This document shows, piece after piece, positions 4,214 through 29,334 of a stretch of DNA of 37,816 bases. The translations under genes and the position numbers were made by a program. The notes under the pieces were generated by a model, which was not told the origin of the DNA, ran no database searches, and saw only the letters and a list, made by a program, of their open reading frames with translations. The first letter of the stretch is position 1, and each line of letters starts with the position of its first letter. This stretch comes from Lachnospiraceae bacterium (GTDB lineage: Bacteria > Bacillota > Clostridia > Lachnospirales > Lachnospiraceae): positions 1 through 37,816 of the forward strand of contig CAJTDN010000024.1 in NCBI GenBank assembly GCA_910574865.1, given 5' to 3'.

Positions 4214-4305
4214 ATTTCGGTGCGCCCGGCGGCGCGCGTTTTTAACCAGTGAAAATCAGGAGATATTGATGAGGAACGTATATGATTTTCTGCTGAATCT
4301 GGATT

Positions 4306-4453
4306 GTTACTATTCACGGGGCTGTGCGCCCCGCCGCATGGCCACCGTCCGATAAAGTGATGGAGCCGGTGGGGCATCCAGCCCATTGCCGCAGGCAATT
4401 ATGAATGGCTGGATGCCGTTACAATCACGGCCGGTTAGGCCGTGAATTGTAAC
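4306..4453 (+). mobile_element. 148-bp MITE-like element, copy 1
   Basis: A non-autonomous element bounded by inverted ends GTTACTATTCACGG and CCGTGAATTGTAAC, and flanked by a perfect 8-bp direct repeat TCTGGATT (4298-4305 and 4454-4461). The interior is full of nested inverted repeats, such as GGGCTGTGCGCCC and GGCATCCAGCC paired with GGCTGGATGCC, and encodes nothing. The same 148-bp sequence occurs inverted at 10383-10530. Removing it and one target copy rejoins the flanks neatly. Confidence 0.9.
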
Positions 4454-4492
4454 TCTGGATTCGTTGGAGCTATAGAATGATGTTTTAGAGGA

Positions 4493-4553: not shown

Positions 4554-6128
4554 ATGGGAATTTATCTGAATCCAGGTAACAAAGGGTTTGAGCAAGCGAT
4601 TCGTTCTAAAATATATGTGGACAAAACGGAGTTGATTGCGTGTACGAACGAACTATTGAACACGGAAGAACGGTTTGTCTGTGTCAGCAGACCAAGGCGT
4701 TTCGGAAAATCCATGGCACTCAAGATGCTGGCGGCCTATTATGGGCGTGGCTATGATTCCAGGGAACTGTTTGCAGGGTTGAAAATAGAAAAAAATCCTT
4801 TTTTTGAGGAAAATTTAAACCAGTATGACGTGATTTATTTAAATATGCAGCAGTTTTTGATTGAGACAAAACCGGGAGCGGTGACGGATTATCTGGAGCG
4901 GGAAGTCGTGGAAGAACTCGGACGGGAATACGGGGGAACCCTTGGAGGGAGGGACTGGGGGCTGGCAGCCGCGTTACGGCGGATTTATGTGGAAACGGGG
5001 AAGCAGTTTGTTTTTCTGATTGACGAGTGGGATTGTGTGATGCGTGAACGTCAGGAATCGGAAGACATGCAAAAGCAATATCTTGATTTTTTGCGTAACC
5101 TTTTAAAGGATCAGGACTTTGTCGCGCTCGCTTACATGACGGGAATTCTGCCCGTCAAAAAGTATGGGAAACATTCGGCTCTTAACATGTTTTGGGAATA
5201 CTCGATGACGGATCAGGGATTTTTTGAGGAGTATACGGGCTTTACGGAGAACGAGGTCAAGGTACTTTGCAAGTGGTTTGACATGGATTTTGACCAGACG
5301 AGCAGTTGGTATGACGGTTACCAACTGACAAGATTTCCACATGTTTATAACCCGAAATCTATCGTGGAAGCAATGCGCCGCCGGAAATTTTTAAATTATT
5401 GGACTTCAACGGAGACCTATGAAGCACTAAAGCCCTATATTGACATGGACTTTGACGGGCTTCGTGCCGACATCGTGAAAATGCTCGGGGGAGGGCGTGT
5501 CAAGGTGAACACACTTACGTTCCAAAATGATATGAGGAATTTTGAAGTAAAGGACGATGTTTTGACGTTGCTTATTCATCTTGGTTATCTTGGATATGAT
5601 TCCGAGAAAGAGGAAGTATTTATTCCGAACAAGGAAATCGTCCGGGAATTTGAAAATGCGATGAGCGTCGGTGGCTGGTCGGAGGTTATGAAGGTTTTGA
5701 AGGCCTCTGAGCGGTTTCTTGAGGACACGCTCCGTTGCGATGGGGAGAAAGTAGCCGAAGGGCTTGACATGGCGCATATGGAGGTGGCCTCGATATTGAC
5801 CTATAATGACGAAAATTCGCTGGGGTGCGCCATCGGCCTCGCGTATTATAGCGCGAGGAAAGATTACAAGATGGTTCGGGAACTGCCCGCCGGACGGGGC
5901 TTTGCCGATGTCGTATTCTTGCCATTGCCTTTTAGCGATAAGCCTGCCCTCGTGGTCGAATTAAAGTATGACAAGTCTGCCGATACGGCTATCAAGCAGA
6001 TAAAAGAAAGAAGATATACAAAGGCGTTGGAAGGTTATGCGGGGGAAATCCTGCTTGTCGGCGTAAATTATGACAAGGACAATAAGAACAAGCCGCACAG
6101 CTGCGTGATTGAAAAGGTGAAAATTTAG
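4554..6128 (+). CDS. AAA-ATPase-like / PD-(D/E)XK nuclease-like protein
   Basis: A 524-aa protein with the two-part architecture known as AAA-ATPase-like (PF09820) followed by PDDEXK_9 (PF08011). The N-terminal part has a P-loop SRPRRFGKS (residues 45-53) and a Walker B LIDEWD (155-160). The C-terminal part shows the nuclease-fold signature: Asp452 in GFADVV, Glu469 and Lys471 in VVELK, and Gln482 in IKQI with a following Tyr. GGGGAGG (4541-4547) fixes the start. These proteins are abundant and often multi-copy in gut Clostridia and Bacteroidetes; their role is unproven. The gene stands alone between a MITE and a large palindrome. Confidence 0.9.
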   Translation: MGIYLNPGNKGFEQAIRSKIYVDKTELIACTNELLNTEERFVCVSRPRRFGKSMALKMLAAYYGRGYDSRELFAGLKIEKNPFFEENLNQYDVIYLNMQQFLIETKPGAVTDYLEREVVEELGREYGGTLGGRDWGLAAALRRIYVETGKQFVFLIDEWDCVMRERQESEDMQKQYLDFLRNLLKDQDFVALAYMTGILPVKKYGKHSALNMFWEYSMTDQGFFEEYTGFTENEVKVLCKWFDMDFDQTSSWYDGYQLTRFPHVYNPKSIVEAMRRRKFLNYWTSTETYEALKPYIDMDFDGLRADIVKMLGGGRVKVNTLTFQNDMRNFEVKDDVLTLLIHLGYLGYDSEKEEVFIPNKEIVREFENAMSVGGWSEVMKVLKASERFLEDTLRCDGEKVAEGLDMAHMEVASILTYNDENSLGCAIGLAYYSARKDYKMVRELPAGRGFADVVFLPLPFSDKPALVVELKYDKSADTAIKQIKERRYTKALEGYAGEILLVGVNYDKDNKNKPHSCVIEKVKI

Positions 6129-7821: not shown

Positions 7822-10026
7822 TTATTTTACGACGACTCTTGCGCGGGCCAGGTTTTTCACTTGCGTAAACATGCTCTTCTCGTTTCCGCTCCGTTCGGAC
7901 TTGACACGCACGGAGGCGAAGTACGTTCCCGGCGCGGTAAACGTGTGCGTGACCGTGGCGGTCGCCTTGTCCTGGCCGTTATAATCCTCGTGCGTTATCT
8001 GTCCGCTGACCGGGAAACAGTCGTCTGCCGGAATCATCCGAATGTCCTCAAACCCGAAATCCATGGCGGTGACGGTGCCGACGCCATGCGGAACGACTGC
8101 TTTCGCGGTAAAGGTGACCTTCTCGCCCACTTTCACTGTTACGCAATCGCTTCCGTTTGCCGTTGCCGCGTGGCTGCCGGTCGCCGCTGCCGTATGGTTG
8201 CCGTTTGCCGTTGCCGCGTGGCTGCCGGTCGCCGCTGCCGCATGGTTGCCGTTTGCCGTTGCCGCGTGGCTGCCGGTCGCAGATGCCGTCAGTTTTACGA
8301 TAGACTGTACGCCGCGGCGTTTCGTGGCGTCCTCTTCCAGGTAAATCTGTCCGTCCTCGTAGCGGTATTCGGAGCTTGCCGGCGGTTCGATTCCGCGCTC
8401 CACCCAGTCGGACAGGTCAAGCAGGGCTTGTTTGTGCGCGCCGAGGTAATTGACGATGATGTTGTTTTCCAACATGGCCACGTCGCCGTGGAGGCATTGT
8501 TCCATGTAGTACACGCGGAAATCCTTCTCGCTGCCGGTCGCCTCGATGACTTTTTTGCGATACCAGTCGGCACACCAGGGACATGTACCCTCGTCCATCA
8601 TGGCTTGCACGACAATGACCTTGCCTTGGATTTGCCCGTCCTGCACGGTTCCGGTGCCGGAGAAGGAGTATCCCATCACATTTTTTCGTTGCGGCAGCGT
8701 GGGGCGGCCGTTTTCATCACGGAACTGATCCCATGCGCGGAAGCTTAAATCATCGGGAACCTGGTGCCGGTAGTAGGACTGCAGGGCGATATAGTCCGAG
8801 TTGTCCAGCGTCAGGGTGTCTCCCGGCTTGATGGAGTCCACCACCGCGGTCAGGTCGGACATGCCGTAGCACATGCCGATTGTCAGTATGCCTCCCCCCG
8901 TCTTTGGGTCGGGAATGATTTGGTCAAGCAGCAGTTGTTTTCCGGAGGCTTCTCCAGAGGTGATGGTGATGGTCACTCCCTTTAGGTACAAGTCATCCCC
9001 TTGCGGGATTTCTTCCAGTTCAATCCAGCCGTCCTTGCCGTTGGCCAGCATTTTTCGCCATGCGTCGTCCACGGAGTTTCCCGCGCCGTTATCGGAAACT
9101 CCGTCCACGGGCGCGTGCACGCTTTTTACGACGCCGCTAAATTGCAATCGGTCACGGGAGGCGGAAGAATTCGGGTTCGCGCCCAGATAGCCTGGAACGT
9201 TCCAAAAATCCTCGAAATATCCGGCGTCCTTGTTTTTTACGTTGGGGTAGAGCACGGGCAGGGAGCCGTCGTCAATCCGCCCCGCGGCTTCTATAAACCA
9301 GGCCATTGGCGGGAATCCCATGCGGAGCATTTCGCGGTACATGAACGCCTCGTTTTCCGTCATGTGCCTGCAGGGGTCGCCGTCGCCGCCGGCATCCATC
9401 GAGTCAATGATTTGTCCGAACACCCTTCGAAGTTCACGCTGGGACTGGACGTGCATGGCTATCGTGTTGGGGAGGCTCACCGGCGAGCCGATGACGTAGG
9501 GAACCGCGCCGTCCCAGGCGTTGGTGTTTTCGATGCAGGCCATGGTCTTGTAGCCGCCGCCGCTGCCGCCGTAGACATAACCGTAGGGACGCTTGCAACC
9601 GTAATATTCCATCGCGACCTGACGGGAATATTCCGCGGCCGCCGCGCTGGCCTTGAAGCACATCGTGGGGTCGGCTTTTGAGCCGAACATGAACTCGGAA
9701 CCCATGTTGCTTTCGACGAAATAGGCCCCGTTTTGCAGGCAGAAGGCGATTTTGTCGTCTTCGCCGGTCTTGTCAAGGGATGCCACCTCCTCGTCCGGTC
9801 CCGGGAATGGCGACAGGTACTGGTAAAATCGGCCCTTGAACTGTTCCTTTGGCGGAAAGCAGAAAATGAATTTTACTTTTTTTTCCTTGAACCCGCCGTG
9901 GACGTAGCGGTAGGGAAGGGCGGTTCCGTCCGGCAAAACGCGCTCGCGCGTTTCGTCCGCGTCGATGTAGCTGTCTTGTAAAGTTGGATCTTGTTTTGCG
10001 TCATAAATTTGTTTTGTTGTTTTCAT
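7822..10026 (-). CDS. Tannase-like alpha/beta hydrolase with tandem repeat linker and PKD-like domain
   Basis: A 734-aa protein. The first 550 residues form an alpha/beta-hydrolase of the tannase/feruloyl-esterase kind. The nucleophile elbow YGGSGGG places Ser155, the DEGTCPWCADWY block gives Asp478, and the QCLHGD block gives His513 as the likely triad. A linker of three 16-residue repeats (ATGSHAATANGNHAAA, residues 583-630) leads to a C-terminal PKD-like beta domain (about 631-734, ending THTFTAPGTYFASVRV). There is no signal peptide although PKD domains are usually extracellular, so a cytoplasmic role is implied. AGAGAGG upstream supports the start. It is co-transcribed with the GPH symporter and divergent from an AraC regulator. 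The substrate is unknown; an ester of a plant glycoside is a reasonable guess. Confidence 0.8.
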   Translation of the reverse strand: MKTTKQIYDAKQDPTLQDSYIDADETRERVLPDGTALPYRYVHGGFKEKKVKFIFCFPPKEQFKGRFYQYLSPFPGPDEEVASLDKTGEDDKIAFCLQNGAYFVESNMGSEFMFGSKADPTMCFKASAAAAEYSRQVAMEYYGCKRPYGYVYGGSGGGYKTMACIENTNAWDGAVPYVIGSPVSLPNTIAMHVQSQRELRRVFGQIIDSMDAGGDGDPCRHMTENEAFMYREMLRMGFPPMAWFIEAAGRIDDGSLPVLYPNVKNKDAGYFEDFWNVPGYLGANPNSSASRDRLQFSGVVKSVHAPVDGVSDNGAGNSVDDAWRKMLANGKDGWIELEEIPQGDDLYLKGVTITITSGEASGKQLLLDQIIPDPKTGGGILTIGMCYGMSDLTAVVDSIKPGDTLTLDNSDYIALQSYYRHQVPDDLSFRAWDQFRDENGRPTLPQRKNVMGYSFSGTGTVQDGQIQGKVIVVQAMMDEGTCPWCADWYRKKVIEATGSEKDFRVYYMEQCLHGDVAMLENNIIVNYLGAHKQALLDLSDWVERGIEPPASSEYRYEDGQIYLEEDATKRRGVQSIVKLTASATGSHAATANGNHAAAATGSHAATANGNHTAAATGSHAATANGSDCVTVKVGEKVTFTAKAVVPHGVGTVTAMDFGFEDIRMIPADDCFPVSGQITHEDYNGQDKATATVTHTFTAPGTYFASVRVKSERSGNEKSMFTQVKNLARARVVVK
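8137..8280 (-). repeat. In-frame 48-bp tandem repeat, three units
   Basis: Three consecutive 48-bp units encode ATGSHAATANGNHAAA and variants; the last is degenerate at its end. Units can be gained or lost without changing frame, so linker length may vary between strains. Confidence 0.85.
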
Positions 10027-10314: not shown

Positions 10315-10382
10315 ATAAAAAGGTGTTTTGCGGACTCCGGTCAATCACTGCGTTGGCTGGCCGGGATGCGGCGTGGATATTT

Positions 10383-10530
10383 GTTACAATTCACGGCCTA
10401 ACCGGCCGTGGATTGTAACGGCATCCAGCCATCTAAAATTGCCTCCGGCAATGGGCTGGATGCCCACTGGCACCATCACTTTATCGGACGGTGGCTGTGC
10501 GGCGGGGCGCACAGCCCCGTGAATAGTAAC
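10383..10530 (-). mobile_element. 148-bp MITE-like element, copy 2 (inverted)
   Basis: The same element as at 4306-4453, in reverse orientation and exactly the same length. It is bounded by GTTACAATTCACGG and CCGTGAATAGTAAC and flanked by a perfect 8-bp duplication GGATATTT (10375-10382 and 10531-10538). It lies 31 bp before the AraC-type gene, between that gene and its likely promoter. Confidence 0.9.
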
Positions 10531-10561
10531 GGATATTTGCCACGGGAATGGAGGAAACGGC

Positions 10562-12999: not shown

Positions 13000-13094
13000 G
13001 TTACTTTTCACGGGGTGGGGAAATAAGGAACCTGGCATCATGCAAGCAAGCTTGCAGCGCCAATTCCTTATTTCCCCACCCCGTCAACGGTAAC
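13000..13094. mobile_element. 95-bp MITE-like element related by its ends
   Basis: The ends GTTACTTTTCACGGGG and CCCCGTCAACGGTAAC match the GTTAC-type ends of the 148-bp elements. A 20-bp perfect arm (13011-13030 with 13064-13083) makes it a near-continuous hairpin. The flanks AGCGGTTC (12992-12999) and GGCGATTC (13095-13102) agree at 6 of 8 positions, as an aged target duplication would. Confidence 0.75.
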
Positions 13095-14685: not shown

Positions 14686-14816
14686 GTTACTGTTCACGGG
14701 GCTGTGCGCCCTGCCGCACGGCCGCCGTCCGATAAAGTAATGGGGCCGATAGGACATCCAGACCATTGCCGTAGGCAATTTTAGATGGCTGGATGCTGTT
14801 ACAATCACGGCCGGTT
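14686..14816 (+). mobile_element. MITE-like element copy 3, cut by the ICE
   Basis: Collinear without gaps with the first 131 bp of copy 1 (a constant offset of 10380), though with scattered substitutions. It begins GTTACTGTTCACGG. Similarity stops after CACGGCCGGTT at 14816; the last 17 bp including the right inverted end are missing and ICE sequence follows. Confidence 0.88.
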
Positions 14817-14898: not shown

Positions 14899-16122
14899 TT
14901 AGTCGGGCAGTTCTACCTTGCCGACAAAAGAATAATAGATTTCGATTTCCTGTCTGCGGAGCTTCCCCCGCCGTTTCCCATCAAGGGCTTCCGATTCGTG
15001 GATTACGATTTTCTCCACAAACTCCCGTAACAGGGTAGGGGTGAGTTCCTCAAAGCTGGTGTACTTGCGTACCACTTTCATAAACTTTTCAGCGTTTGCC
15101 GTGGCTTCCAGCGTCTTAGAAAGCTCGCTCTGCAAGGCGGCGGCTTTCTCTTTCAGTTCCTTTTGCTCGGCTTCATAGTCTGCCGAAAGCTCCGTGAAAC
15201 GCTCGTCCGATATGCGCCCGGTCACGCTGTCCTCATACAGCCGCTTGAAGATAGCGGAGAGTTCCGCAATCCGCTTTTCTGCCGCTTCCAGTTCTTTCTT
15301 CCTTGCGGTGTTCCGGCGTTTGCTCCCGTCCTCGGTCTGCTCGGTCAACAGCTTCATAAACCGGGCTTCATGCTTGGCGGCGTAGCTGGTGACTTTCCGT
15401 AGGTTCTCGGTCACTCCGGCGGTCAAGAGGTCGGTGCGGATAAAGTGCGCCGTACAGTCTGCCGTGCGCTTCTTGTAGCTGCCGCATATGTAGCAGTCCT
15501 GTTTCCGCTTGTCCGTCTGATACCTCTGCTGGTACATGACGCTGCCGCAGTCGGCACAAAACAGTATGCCGGAGAACAAGCCCACTTCATCATAGCGGTT
15601 GGGGCGTTTGCGCTGCTTGCGTAGCTCCTGTACACGCTCCCATATGTCACGGTCTATGATGATTTCGTGGTGGTTCTCAAAAACCGCCTGTTTGTCCTCG
15701 CTGTTGTAGATAATCTTGCTGCATTTGTAGGATTGGGTGGTGGTCTTGAAGTTCACAAGGCAGCCCGTGTATTCCCTGTTTTCAAGGATATGCACCACGG
15801 TATTCGCCGCCCACTTGCACTCATAGCCGGGGTGGTAGCGGCGTGTGCTTCCCGTCCGGCGGTATTCCAGCGTTCCCGGCGTGGGGATTTGCTGCTCTGT
15901 GAGCATACGGGCTATCTTGGTCGGTCCGTTCCCGGCAAGGCAAAGGCTGTAAATCTGCTTCACCACGGGGGCGGCTTCTTCGTCAATGATGAAATTTTCG
16001 TCCTCGTCCATGAGGTAGCCGTACACAGGCTTGCTTGTGACGGGCTTCCCGCTCATGCCTTTTGACCTCTTGACCGCTCTGATTTTCTTGCTCGTATCCC
16101 TCACCAGCCATTCGTTGAACAC
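14899..16122 (-). pseudogene. Large serine recombinase lacking the catalytic domain
   Basis: The frame encodes 407 residues of a large serine recombinase. The recombinase DNA-binding domain begins NEWLVRDTSKKIRAVKRSKG and continues with PVYGYLMDEDENFIIDEEAA. A zinc-ribbon domain follows (CADCGSVMY with CYICGSYKK and a later Cys), then a long coiled coil (KRRNTARKKELEAAEKRIAEL onward) and a C-terminal EFVEKIVIHE block. The N-terminal resolvase domain of about 130 residues with the catalytic serine is absent; a stop codon lies two codons upstream of the GTG at 16122 and foreign sequence follows. It cannot cut DNA by itself. Reading toward the element's left end is usual for an integrase, so a functional one must be elsewhere or the element is immobile. 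Confidence 0.85.
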
Positions 16123-26538: not shown

Positions 26539-27285
26539 GTGCGACACGTTGACACACAACCACCATCCTATGAAGCCAAAACTTCATGGGCAAATGTCCA
26601 CATGGTGATAAAAGTGTCGGGCCTACTGTAACGGCGGGCAACAACTAATCATCCGAAGGGTGGAATGAAGGGGTAACGTCCTGAAACGCCCTCCCTGATA
26701 CTTCGACTGGCGTTGACTGTAATGGTCAGGGTCGGCAGCTCGGTAAAGTCGGCGGAAGTTTGTCGTAACAGCGTGTGAAAGCACGGCTGACGAAAGCGCG
26801 GCAGAGGTGCCGTGTGCAGATGACACGCCGGGGGTCTATAAAATACCTATGGTGAGAATGTCTACGACGGACTGACGAAAACCGCGAATGTACGGGTCTA
26901 AATGTTTACCGTATAGAAATGTACGGACGCTTAAATGCGGGTTAGTGCGGTAAAGTAAGAATCAAAAATATAAAATACCGTGGCGTGTTACAGGCACGTC
27001 CCAGCTAACAGGACTATAGCGGACACCTAAGGGTATATATGAACAGATAGGATGATTGGAACGTGGAAAGGTACAGAAGTTGCTCATTTGCGACGTGCGG
27101 TCGAATCATATAAGCCGCTTTATCTGTGCTGAAAAGCGAAGCTCGAACCTATGATAGCCCAACGAAAAAGGCGGGCCGGAGGGATGGGCTTTAGTCGGAT
27201 AGAAAAAGTCAATGTTATTCAATCGTATAAGGATTACGAGTATGACCAAAAGGGACACTTTCCCGCGAAAGGAGAGTGATGCCTT

Positions 27286-29172
27286 ATGACCAAAGAGAAC
27301 AAGAAAAAGCTGTTAAGTGAAGAAAGTCTGCGCCATAACGAGTATTACGGAATGCAGGACGTTTTTGATAAACTGTATGCACAAAGCAAAAATGGTGAAG
27401 TATTTGAGGACTTGATGCCCAAAATTCTGAGCCGTGAAAATATTCTTTTGGCATACCGCAACATTAAAGCGAACACAGGAAGTAAAACGGAAGGAACAGA
27501 CGGTCTTACAATCGGGGACATCGGGCGATTGCCGCCTGATGAAGTAGTCACAAAAGTTCGGTTTATTGTAGAAGGCAGTAAACACGGCTACCGCCCCAAA
27601 TCTGTACGGCGCAAAGAAATCCCAAAGCCCTATGATCCAACCAAAACACGGCCTTTAGGGATACCGTGTATCTGGGACAGGTTAATTCAGCAGTGCGTAA
27701 AGCAAATTATGGAGCCAATATGCGAAGCGAAGTTCAGCAGTAACAGCTATGGGTTCCGTCCGAATCATTCTGTGGAAAATGCAATCGCAAGAAGTTACCA
27801 GTTACTTCAAATCGCCAATCTGCATTATGTGATTGAGTTTGATATTAAGGGCTTCTTTGACAATGTGGACCACAGCAAACTGATACGGCAAATATGGGCA
27901 ATGGGAATACACGACAAACATCTTATATACGTCCTACGGAAAATGCTGGCAGCTCCTATCAAATTGGAAAACGGAGTGCAAATCGTTCCTGACAAGGGGA
28001 CGCCACAAGGTGGAATTATTTCACCTCTGTTAGCAAATATCGTGTTGAATGAGCTGGACCACTGGATTGAAAGCCAGTGGCAGTATAGCCCTCTGTGTAC
28101 TCGATGCAGTCGTCCCAACAACGGATACCGGACGGCGAAGAAAACAGGGCTAAAAGAGATGTTTATTGTGCGATACGCTGATGATTTCCGGATATTCTGC
28201 CGAACCAAGAAAGCCGCTGAACGAACAAAAATTGCAGTTACACAATGGCTTGCAGAGCGGCTGAAATTGGAAGTCTCGCAGGAGAAAACGAGAATTGTCA
28301 ATGTCAAGCGTCATTATTCTAACTTCTTGGGTTTCAAAATGAAGGTACATCCCAAGGGAGAGAAGCAGGTTGTTATGTCATATATCGCGGATAAGAATCT
28401 GTTGCACAAACGCCGAAAACTGGTAGAGCAGGCCAAGCACATTGCAAAGCCGCGCAAGAGCTACGGAGAGGCCGGAGAAATCCAACTATACAACAGTATG
28501 GTGACGGGAATGCAGAATTACTATCAGATTGCAACTCATGTCAACTTGGACTGCTCCAAACTGAACCGCGCTGTTATGGTGGTTCTGACAAACAGATTGA
28601 GTACGCGGAGGGGAAATCGGCTGTCAAGGTCGGGAAGAAAACTGACCGACTTTGAACGGAAACGGTATGGCAAATCGAAAATGCTGCGCTATGTGGCAGG
28701 AACGAATGAGCCTATCTATCCTATCGGATACACACAGCACAAAAATCCTTTGTTCAGAAAGCGCGAATGGAATATTTACACGCCAGAGGGACGAGAGGGA
28801 CTGCACGATAATCTTCGTATCAATGTTCCCCTCATGCTTGCGCTGATGCGACAGCCTTTATACAACAGGAGCGCCGAATATGCGGACAACCGCATTTCGC
28901 ACTTCTCCGCACAATGGGGAAGATGTGCTGTGACAGGTCAGGAGTTTACGAATGCGTCGGAAATTCATTGCCACCACATACTGCCGCGCAGTCAGGGCGG
29001 TGATGATTCGTATGAGAATCTGGTGCTGGTATCTGAATCAGTACATAGGCTCATACACGCCACACAGAAGGATACAATCGCAAAATACCTGCGTATCCTG
29101 AATCTTGATAAAGAGCAGCTTAAAAAGCTGAACAAATTCCGAGAAAAAGCAGAATTATTCCCAGTGACTTAA
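27286..29172 (+). CDS. ltrA: Group II intron reverse transcriptase/maturase with HNH endonuclease
   Basis: A 628-aa multifunctional protein. Reverse-transcriptase blocks include KSVRRKEIPKP, RPLGIPCIWDRLIQQ, SYGFRPNHS, VIEFDIKGFFDNVDH, GTPQGGIISPLLANI and the catalytic YADD at residues 297-300. A cysteine pair (CTRCSR) occurs in an insertion before YADD. The maturase/domain X region follows (LYNSMVTGMQNYY). The C-terminal HNH endonuclease has CAVTG, then HCHHILPRSQGG and ENLVLV. All three activities appear intact: splicing assistance, target cleavage and target-primed reverse transcription. GGAG 9-10 nt upstream supports the start. Confidence 0.95.
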   Translation: MTKENKKKLLSEESLRHNEYYGMQDVFDKLYAQSKNGEVFEDLMPKILSRENILLAYRNIKANTGSKTEGTDGLTIGDIGRLPPDEVVTKVRFIVEGSKHGYRPKSVRRKEIPKPYDPTKTRPLGIPCIWDRLIQQCVKQIMEPICEAKFSSNSYGFRPNHSVENAIARSYQLLQIANLHYVIEFDIKGFFDNVDHSKLIRQIWAMGIHDKHLIYVLRKMLAAPIKLENGVQIVPDKGTPQGGIISPLLANIVLNELDHWIESQWQYSPLCTRCSRPNNGYRTAKKTGLKEMFIVRYADDFRIFCRTKKAAERTKIAVTQWLAERLKLEVSQEKTRIVNVKRHYSNFLGFKMKVHPKGEKQVVMSYIADKNLLHKRRKLVEQAKHIAKPRKSYGEAGEIQLYNSMVTGMQNYYQIATHVNLDCSKLNRAVMVVLTNRLSTRRGNRLSRSGRKLTDFERKRYGKSKMLRYVAGTNEPIYPIGYTQHKNPLFRKREWNIYTPEGREGLHDNLRINVPLMLALMRQPLYNRSAEYADNRISHFSAQWGRCAVTGQEFTNASEIHCHHILPRSQGGDDSYENLVLVSESVHRLIHATQKDTIAKYLRILNLDKEQLKKLNKFREKAELFPVT

Positions 29173-29249
29173 CCAATATTTTCACCCAATACAGCTAACA
29201 AAATATCTATGGTTTGATTGAATAAACAGCGTACATTTTCTAACCGATG

Positions 29250-29334
29250 GAACGCCGTGTGCGGTGAAAGTCGCACGCACGGCGTGGGGTGGGGGAAAAG
29301 CCTGAGATTGTATCAGGGGCTTACCTATCACCAT
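29250..29334 (+). ncRNA. Group II intron domains V and VI
   Basis: The segment ACGCCGTG...CACGGCGT encloses GCGGTGAAAGTCGC, the highly conserved catalytic domain V core. Downstream, CCTGA-7 nt-TCAGG and the run ACCTATCACCAT form the domain VI region, which should contain the branch-point adenosine, and the intron's 3' end. Confidence 0.85.

Follow-up and report, generated by a model that had tools for sequence, protein, structure and literature searches.

A three-hairpin MITE family of Lachnospiraceae with 8 bp target duplications, and candidate IS66-like partner transposases

Bacterial MITEs are usually regarded as derivatives of one insertion sequence. In the passages of a review devoted to prokaryotic MITEs (PMC10969869) these are described as elements of less than 500 bp with short inverted ends and target duplications, which form hairpins, lie between genes and are typically AT-rich, with QMITE2 of Coxiella burnetii having duplications of 7–9 bp; the words IS66, Clostridi- and Lachnospir- are absent from the main text of that review. 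The element presented here is likewise short, inverted-ended, duplication-flanked, hairpin-forming and intergenic, but it differs in its GC content (37–63%) and in a fold that covaries across genera, with duplication-supported copies in 20 of 25 genera besides that of the host. To our knowledge, a conserved fold of this kind is unusual among MITEs. REP/RAYT palindromic repeats are also short hairpins with many intergenic copies; REPs are not known to make a target duplication, whereas the Lachnospiraceae element does. With the structured RNAs of Rfam the element shares covarying helices and conserved loops, but it is mobile, makes target duplications and, in the window and in 14 loci, matches no Rfam family at gathering score. 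For the IS66 family, the pertinent passages of PMC11946415 give a target duplication of 8 bp and ends of the form GTAAGCG; the candidate transposases discussed below resemble this family in their DDE_Tnp_IS66 domain and in the 8 bp duplications of their transposons, but differ from it in ends, profile scores and position in a protein tree. Literature searches returned, as judged by title, nothing on bacterial transposons for five 12-base forms of the ends, no MITE derived from IS66, and unrelated matches only for Lachnospiraceae together with MITE; the combination of IS66, MITE and 8 bp led to work on Paracoccus.

The window, that is, the whole stretch of 37,816 nucleotides analysed, is contig C24 of a 5.33 Mb host assembly of 82 contigs, and the host is congeneric with Schaedlerella arabinosiphila. 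The original prediction described two complete copies of a MITE in opposite orientation, with shared inverted ends and with perfect 8 bp flanks that differ between the copies, and each of these particulars was verified in the sequence (Table 1), both copies being exactly 148 bp. The element is short and without coding capacity, and 13 of the 14 bases of its inverted ends match; copies 1 and 2 are 93% identical, and the copy 2 sequence is identical in six genomic copies of the host. The reading of both window copies as copies of a MITE is supported and holds. A third copy and a second hairpin element, both overlooked at first, were found in the same window, the flanks of the latter (AGCGGTTC/GGCGATTC) agreeing at 6 of 8 bases. 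Longer elements with ends similar to those of this second hairpin element occur elsewhere in the host (L032, L047).

Table 1. Copies of the element, their target-site duplications and a related hairpin element in the window
Feature	Position	Strand	Remarks
MITE copy 1	4306..4453	+	148 bp, ends GTTACTATTCACGG / GTTACAATTCACGG
Target-site duplication, left of copy 1	4298..4305	n/a	TCTGGATT
Target-site duplication, right of copy 1	4454..4461	n/a	TCTGGATT
MITE copy 2	10383..10530	-	148 bp, ends GTTACTATTCACGG / GTTACAATTCACGG
Target-site duplication, left of copy 2	10375..10382	n/a	GGATATTT
Target-site duplication, right of copy 2	10531..10538	n/a	GGATATTT
MITE copy 3	14686..14816	+	Right end degraded; model match extends to 14830
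Second hairpin element	13000..13094	+	End type as in the MITE (GTTACTTTTCACGG), interior different

If the original prediction was right, many copies with 8 bp duplications were to be expected, and the host was found to hold at least 40 copies of the element (45 matching places, or about 41 loci once split matches are merged by eye), a lower bound, with 40 of 139 first-look candidates scored. Among 30 copies fetched, the 8 bp flanks match at 8/8 bases in 23 and at 7/8 in four, while of the remaining copies one has a perfect 7 bp repeat, one a perfect 9 bp repeat and one none; at offset control positions the corresponding counts were 0/1113 (8/8) and 3/1113 (7/8). These figures include an element edge that was corrected by hand after a first tabulation in 4 of the 30 copies (L003, L017, L023 and L027), and likewise in two 199 bp copies, the 8/8 count before correction being 19/30. 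Long flanking homology is absent among the 30 copies (at most four shared 14-mers per pair, over 400 bp on each side), and the claim of real, separate insertions withstood this check. Since six of the 28 copies compared are identical, movement in the host is recent: the element has inserted recurrently and independently, with 8 bp duplications, and has lately spread through this genome.

The insertion of copy 1 is also documented by an empty site. In the same-genus genome G001 the surroundings of copy 1 are kept without the element and with a single target copy (TCCGAATT), the match stopping at window base 4305 and resuming past the second duplication; the expectation of empty sites in relatives was borne out here, and for the copy 2 site the flanks in G001 and G002 are too divergent to compare. 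The empty site sits inside a 16-codon open frame of G001; a strict pattern search for similar peptides, run over nine loci that carry relatives of the following gene, was negative.

With ≤1 mismatch allowed, the host has 270 occurrences of the 14-base end, compared with 31 of a reversed control, and many of the unpaired end matches are short palindromes or relics. Free-standing palindromes of about 36–37 bp (L037, L040, L044 and L046 in the host) consist of two inverted end sequences and resemble an isolated right terminal hairpin of the MITE. A 199 bp subfamily (L022, L028, L066) carries an additional hairpin within the left stem, and both of its host copies have perfect 8 bp duplications. 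The 148 bp sequence had no match in phage and plasmid collections.

By BLAST the element was found in 8 of 116 genomes, host included, all of the same genus (8 of the 12 sampled from it), and its length stays near 148 bp even in matches of 74–76% identity. A covariance model built from 23 same-genus copies reached much further: among 250 Lachnospiraceae genomes, one per genus, 26 had matches, the host included. Against 291 class-wide genomes the same model matched the host only, and at least nine fellow family members listed there were without a match, as would be expected if the element is missing from most genera. From the 25 other genera 79 loci were fetched, yielding 82 hits at E ≤ 1e-4; at their predicted edges the duplication is 8/8 in 34 and 7/8 in 21 (together 55/82), compared with 0/2227 and 2/2227 at offset controls, the 82 including weak rows without ends or duplication, such as L250, L284, L290 and L291. 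Since the model is blind to the flanks, duplications at its edges confirm homology and mobility independently. The ends read GTTAC/GTTAC in 39/82 hits and GTAAC/GTAAC in 13/82, and the length is 130–149 bp in 78/82. In 20 of the 25 genera one or more hits have a duplication of at least 7/8; the five below this mark are G030, which has one perfect 9 bp repeat, G223, G250, G164 and G205, and the single hits in G164 and G205, which have neither ends nor duplication, may be false. Comparison of 13 genomes gave 83–100% identity among the copies of any one genome, whereas representatives of different genomes, one each, have a median identity of 67%, and the element has therefore been amplified genome by genome.

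The predicted fold is a chain of three hairpins. The first is a left stem; the central one carries an apical stem and, in its 3' strand, a T-rich bulge of roughly 7–9 bases; the third, a right terminal stem, includes both the element end and an inner inverted copy of that end. These three hairpins covary and are retained across genera of Lachnospiraceae. In particular, among 80 distinct rows, whose alignment was fitted to the covariance model and so favours the model's pairing, 94.2% of stem cells are paired (65.7% when shuffled), 36 of 37 stem pairs have changes on both sides, and the covariation score is 0.583 (0.153 when shuffled); when the partner is slid by 1–3 columns, pairing falls to 28–52%. 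Independently of the model-fitted alignment, a MAFFT alignment of the genus contains compensatory change in 11 of 37 pairs. Moreover, elements folded singly, from 26 genomes of which three belong to the host's genus, give a mean z of -6.3, the weakest being -1.0, and flank pieces taken as a folding control range from -2.7 to 1.7. Conservation of the fold across genera is well supported. Constancy in the central hairpin is 0.96–0.99 for three columns of the bulge and 0.62–0.84 for its other columns, while in the 5' stem arm it is 0.37–0.69 for the seven outer columns and 0.85 for the two inner ones; this contrast between bulge and stem is limited to the central hairpin, because over the whole element the mean conservation of paired (0.68) and unpaired (0.69) columns is about equal.

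As to genomic context, 2 of 108 elements (four of 112 having been excluded as too near a contig end) are flanked left and right by compatible 80-codon open frames, compared with 601 of 851 control positions taken from these loci. In tandem gene contexts the element lies in the same orientation as the genes 23 times and in the opposite orientation 27 times, which amounts to no preference in a set of 82 of which 9 had no usable context and 52 were non-host elements picked by hand from the 82 model hits, mostly for good duplications. The avoidance of open frames and the lack of orientation bias fit a role in cis at the DNA level better than a fixed place in mRNA. Considering that a non-coding element is selectable mainly in cis, we lean towards a function in cis, either in transposition or in tolerance by the host.

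Within the genus, searches covered the transposase families ISL3, IS256 and IS66, of which one, IS66-like, has matching ends. S. arabinosiphila DSM 106076 (G007), a member of the Lachnospiraceae, carries divergent DDE_Tnp_IS66 proteins within 2176 bp and 2458 bp elements, intact copies included, which are flanked by perfect 8 bp duplications and end not in GTAAGCG but in GTTACTATTCACAG, that is, in 13 of the 14 bases of the MITE left end. Three identical copies of a GTTAC-ended element in this genome have three different 8 bp duplications. A larger element with nearly the same ends around a transposase, which the original prediction led one to look for, was accordingly found in S. arabinosiphila and in other genomes. 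Public genomes contain 73 related transposase loci; an end pair with an 8/8 duplication is present in 17 and a pair of 12/16 or better in 38, the pairs having been picked by a score that includes the duplication and many loci being cut by contig ends, and GTTACTATTCACGG itself lies at one end in six of the 73. Among carriers of the MITE, G159 has a second transposase clade, whose ends are GTTACTGTTCACACCC and whose duplication is 8/8, and in G049 the left end alone of such an element was observed.

The candidate proteins match PF03050 above its cut-off (E 4e-15 to 1e-10 for three proteins of clade 1, 2e-25 and 5e-11 for two of clade 2), but they do not reach the curated score of 180 for NCBIfam NF033517, with 151–154 bits in clade 1 and 162 and 102 bits in clade 2, the 102-bit protein being truncated at a contig end. 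A tree of 26 proteins, one canonical IS66 row of which sits on a very long branch, separates the GTTAC proteins by a 100/100 branch from 12 canonical IS66 proteins of these genomes, and both canonical groups that were delimited (in G159 and G007) have GTAAGCG as their right end; the GTTAC-ended clade is in these respects set apart from canonical IS66. Three small upstream ORFs tested gave no match to the Pfam families of IS66 accessory proteins.

No transposase of the GTTAC-ended lineage was found in the host assembly, where the sole IS66 remnant is a fragment in a 77-aa open frame. Likewise, no longer element between paired ends was seen in the host stretches scanned, which are part of the genome, the listed end matches running as far as contig C16, so that such an element may yet lie elsewhere in the host; 36 small host contigs, taken whole, contain none of these ends at ≤1 mismatch. 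Any IS66-like match was found in 9 of the 25 other carriers and none in 16, and a GTTAC-type transposase at E ≤ 1e-20 in 2 of the 26 carriers (one being G049). Further, a search for the MITE interior in 76 loci harbouring such transposases or remnants of them was negative (best E 0.45): in the autonomous elements seen it is unrecognisable, and the ends alone are common to both. Either the GTTAC transposase is transient, lost or unassembled in carriers, or another enzyme does the work.

Several other partners were considered and rejected. The ISL3 element of the host has ends of its own (GAATCTTTCC) and a second ISL3 match lacks an end pair; IS256 is absent from the host; canonical IS66 has the right ends given above; and an IS6-like element of S. 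arabinosiphila ends in GGTAGTGTCAAG, differing from the MITE. The last element (L080 and copies) has these ends in five nearly identical copies compared, has direct repeats of roughly 8 bp at its borders and contains a 538 aa open frame with an ATG ORF of 512 aa. From comparison of sequences we propose, with moderate confidence, that the best partner for the MITE would be the sister clade of IS66 transposases; mobilization in trans is suggested because the ends of the candidate transposons match those of the MITE.

Taken together, we give a probability of roughly two in three to the reading that the element is a non-autonomous DNA transposon of about 130–149 bp, moved by the GTTAC-ended sister clade of IS66 and carrying a fold that is useful in cis. 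A DDE transposase of this clade would bind the 14 bp ends of the MITE in trans and then excise or copy it, and the MITE would be joined to a target cut with an 8 bp stagger. Less surely, the fold may be retained for a benefit in cis, either because transposition makes use of a hairpin or cruciform or because the structure makes insertion beside genes tolerable; we know of no such cis-acting fold, in a transposition substrate or in host tolerance, for IS66-type elements. That a different transposase using GTTAC/GTAAC ends and 8 bp staggers moves the MITE, the IS66-like clade being a bystander, seems to us unlikely. The host, in which six identical copies speak of recent movement, is without an IS66-like transposase, as are, by our searches, 16 of the 25 other carriers, among them G277 and G148 with four copies each at a median identity of 0.98. 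On the other hand, end sequence and duplication length both agree in the IS66-like clade, also within the same genus; no other transposon that we delimited had such ends, the scanned part of the host genome showed no longer element framed by an end pair, and an IS66-like element may be missed by draft assemblies, lost or transient. Segmental duplication or an assembly artefact in place of transposition can practically be dismissed, and is refuted for the window copies by their differing flanks, their differing duplications and the empty site. One instance of duplication does exist elsewhere: in S. arabinosiphila two MITE copies (L053, L060) lie 2.75 kb apart with near flanks alike and similar ORFs after each, and these are not independent insertions because a tandem duplication encloses the element.

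The fold itself admits two further explanations, both of which we regard as rather improbable. It is conceivable that the element is a structured RNA (a regulator, terminator or processing site) that turned mobile, with selection acting on transcripts of neighbouring genes, given the RNA-like covariation, the conservation of the unpaired T-rich bulge and loop, and, in the alignment of the whole family, an excess of G–U cells (101) over A–C cells (32), a count biased by model fitting. However, distinct events within the genus number 21 vs 13, with no clear excess, the orientation to tandem genes is unbiased, no Rfam family matches, and amplification has proceeded genome by genome. To a similarly small degree we credit the idea that the hairpins are kept without selection, template-switch correction of palindromes holding the arms complementary during drift. 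All four base pairs are found at single arm positions, as repeated re-templating would yield, and, taken over its full length, the element shows no clear excess of constancy in unpaired over paired columns; yet plain correction predicts neither the near-constancy of the three bulge columns beside the variable outer stem of the central hairpin nor the narrow range of length. Pairing could nevertheless be kept partly by such correction rather than by selection.

Returning to the reading of a non-autonomous transposon with a fold useful in cis, we put forward, tentatively and at a little short of even odds, a broader proposal: that these elements form a family-wide, gene-less transposon lineage defined by selected secondary structure, which amplifies via borrowed GTTAC-ended IS66-like transposases and whose fold acts in cis. 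If so, the lineage would persist independently of any single autonomous parent, and three hairpins, a conserved unpaired bulge and a nearly fixed length would be its hallmarks. Unlike the usual view of MITEs, the interior is unrecognisable in the candidate parents, and the fold is kept despite wholesale replacement of the stems. Selected structure in a non-coding mobile element thereby becomes a testable question, and the structural model may be used to annotate these repeats in gut genomes.

Some neighbouring features of the window are worth recording. Just downstream of copy 1, at 4554–6128, lies a gene for a predicted 524-aa AAA-ATPase with a PD-(D/E)XK domain, several diverged relatives of which are present in G001, G002, G003 and G007. 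A 734-aa ORF (7822–10026, minus strand) contains 24 bp tandem repeats at 8122–8318 and a weak match to a PKD domain, below cut-off and outside the repeat region. The degraded copy 3 adjoins a serine recombinase gene (14899–16122, minus strand; Recombinase, zinc ribbon and DUF4368 domains), and a group II intron with two Rfam matches occupies 26640–29334, its reverse transcriptase/HNH ORF lying at 27286–29172.
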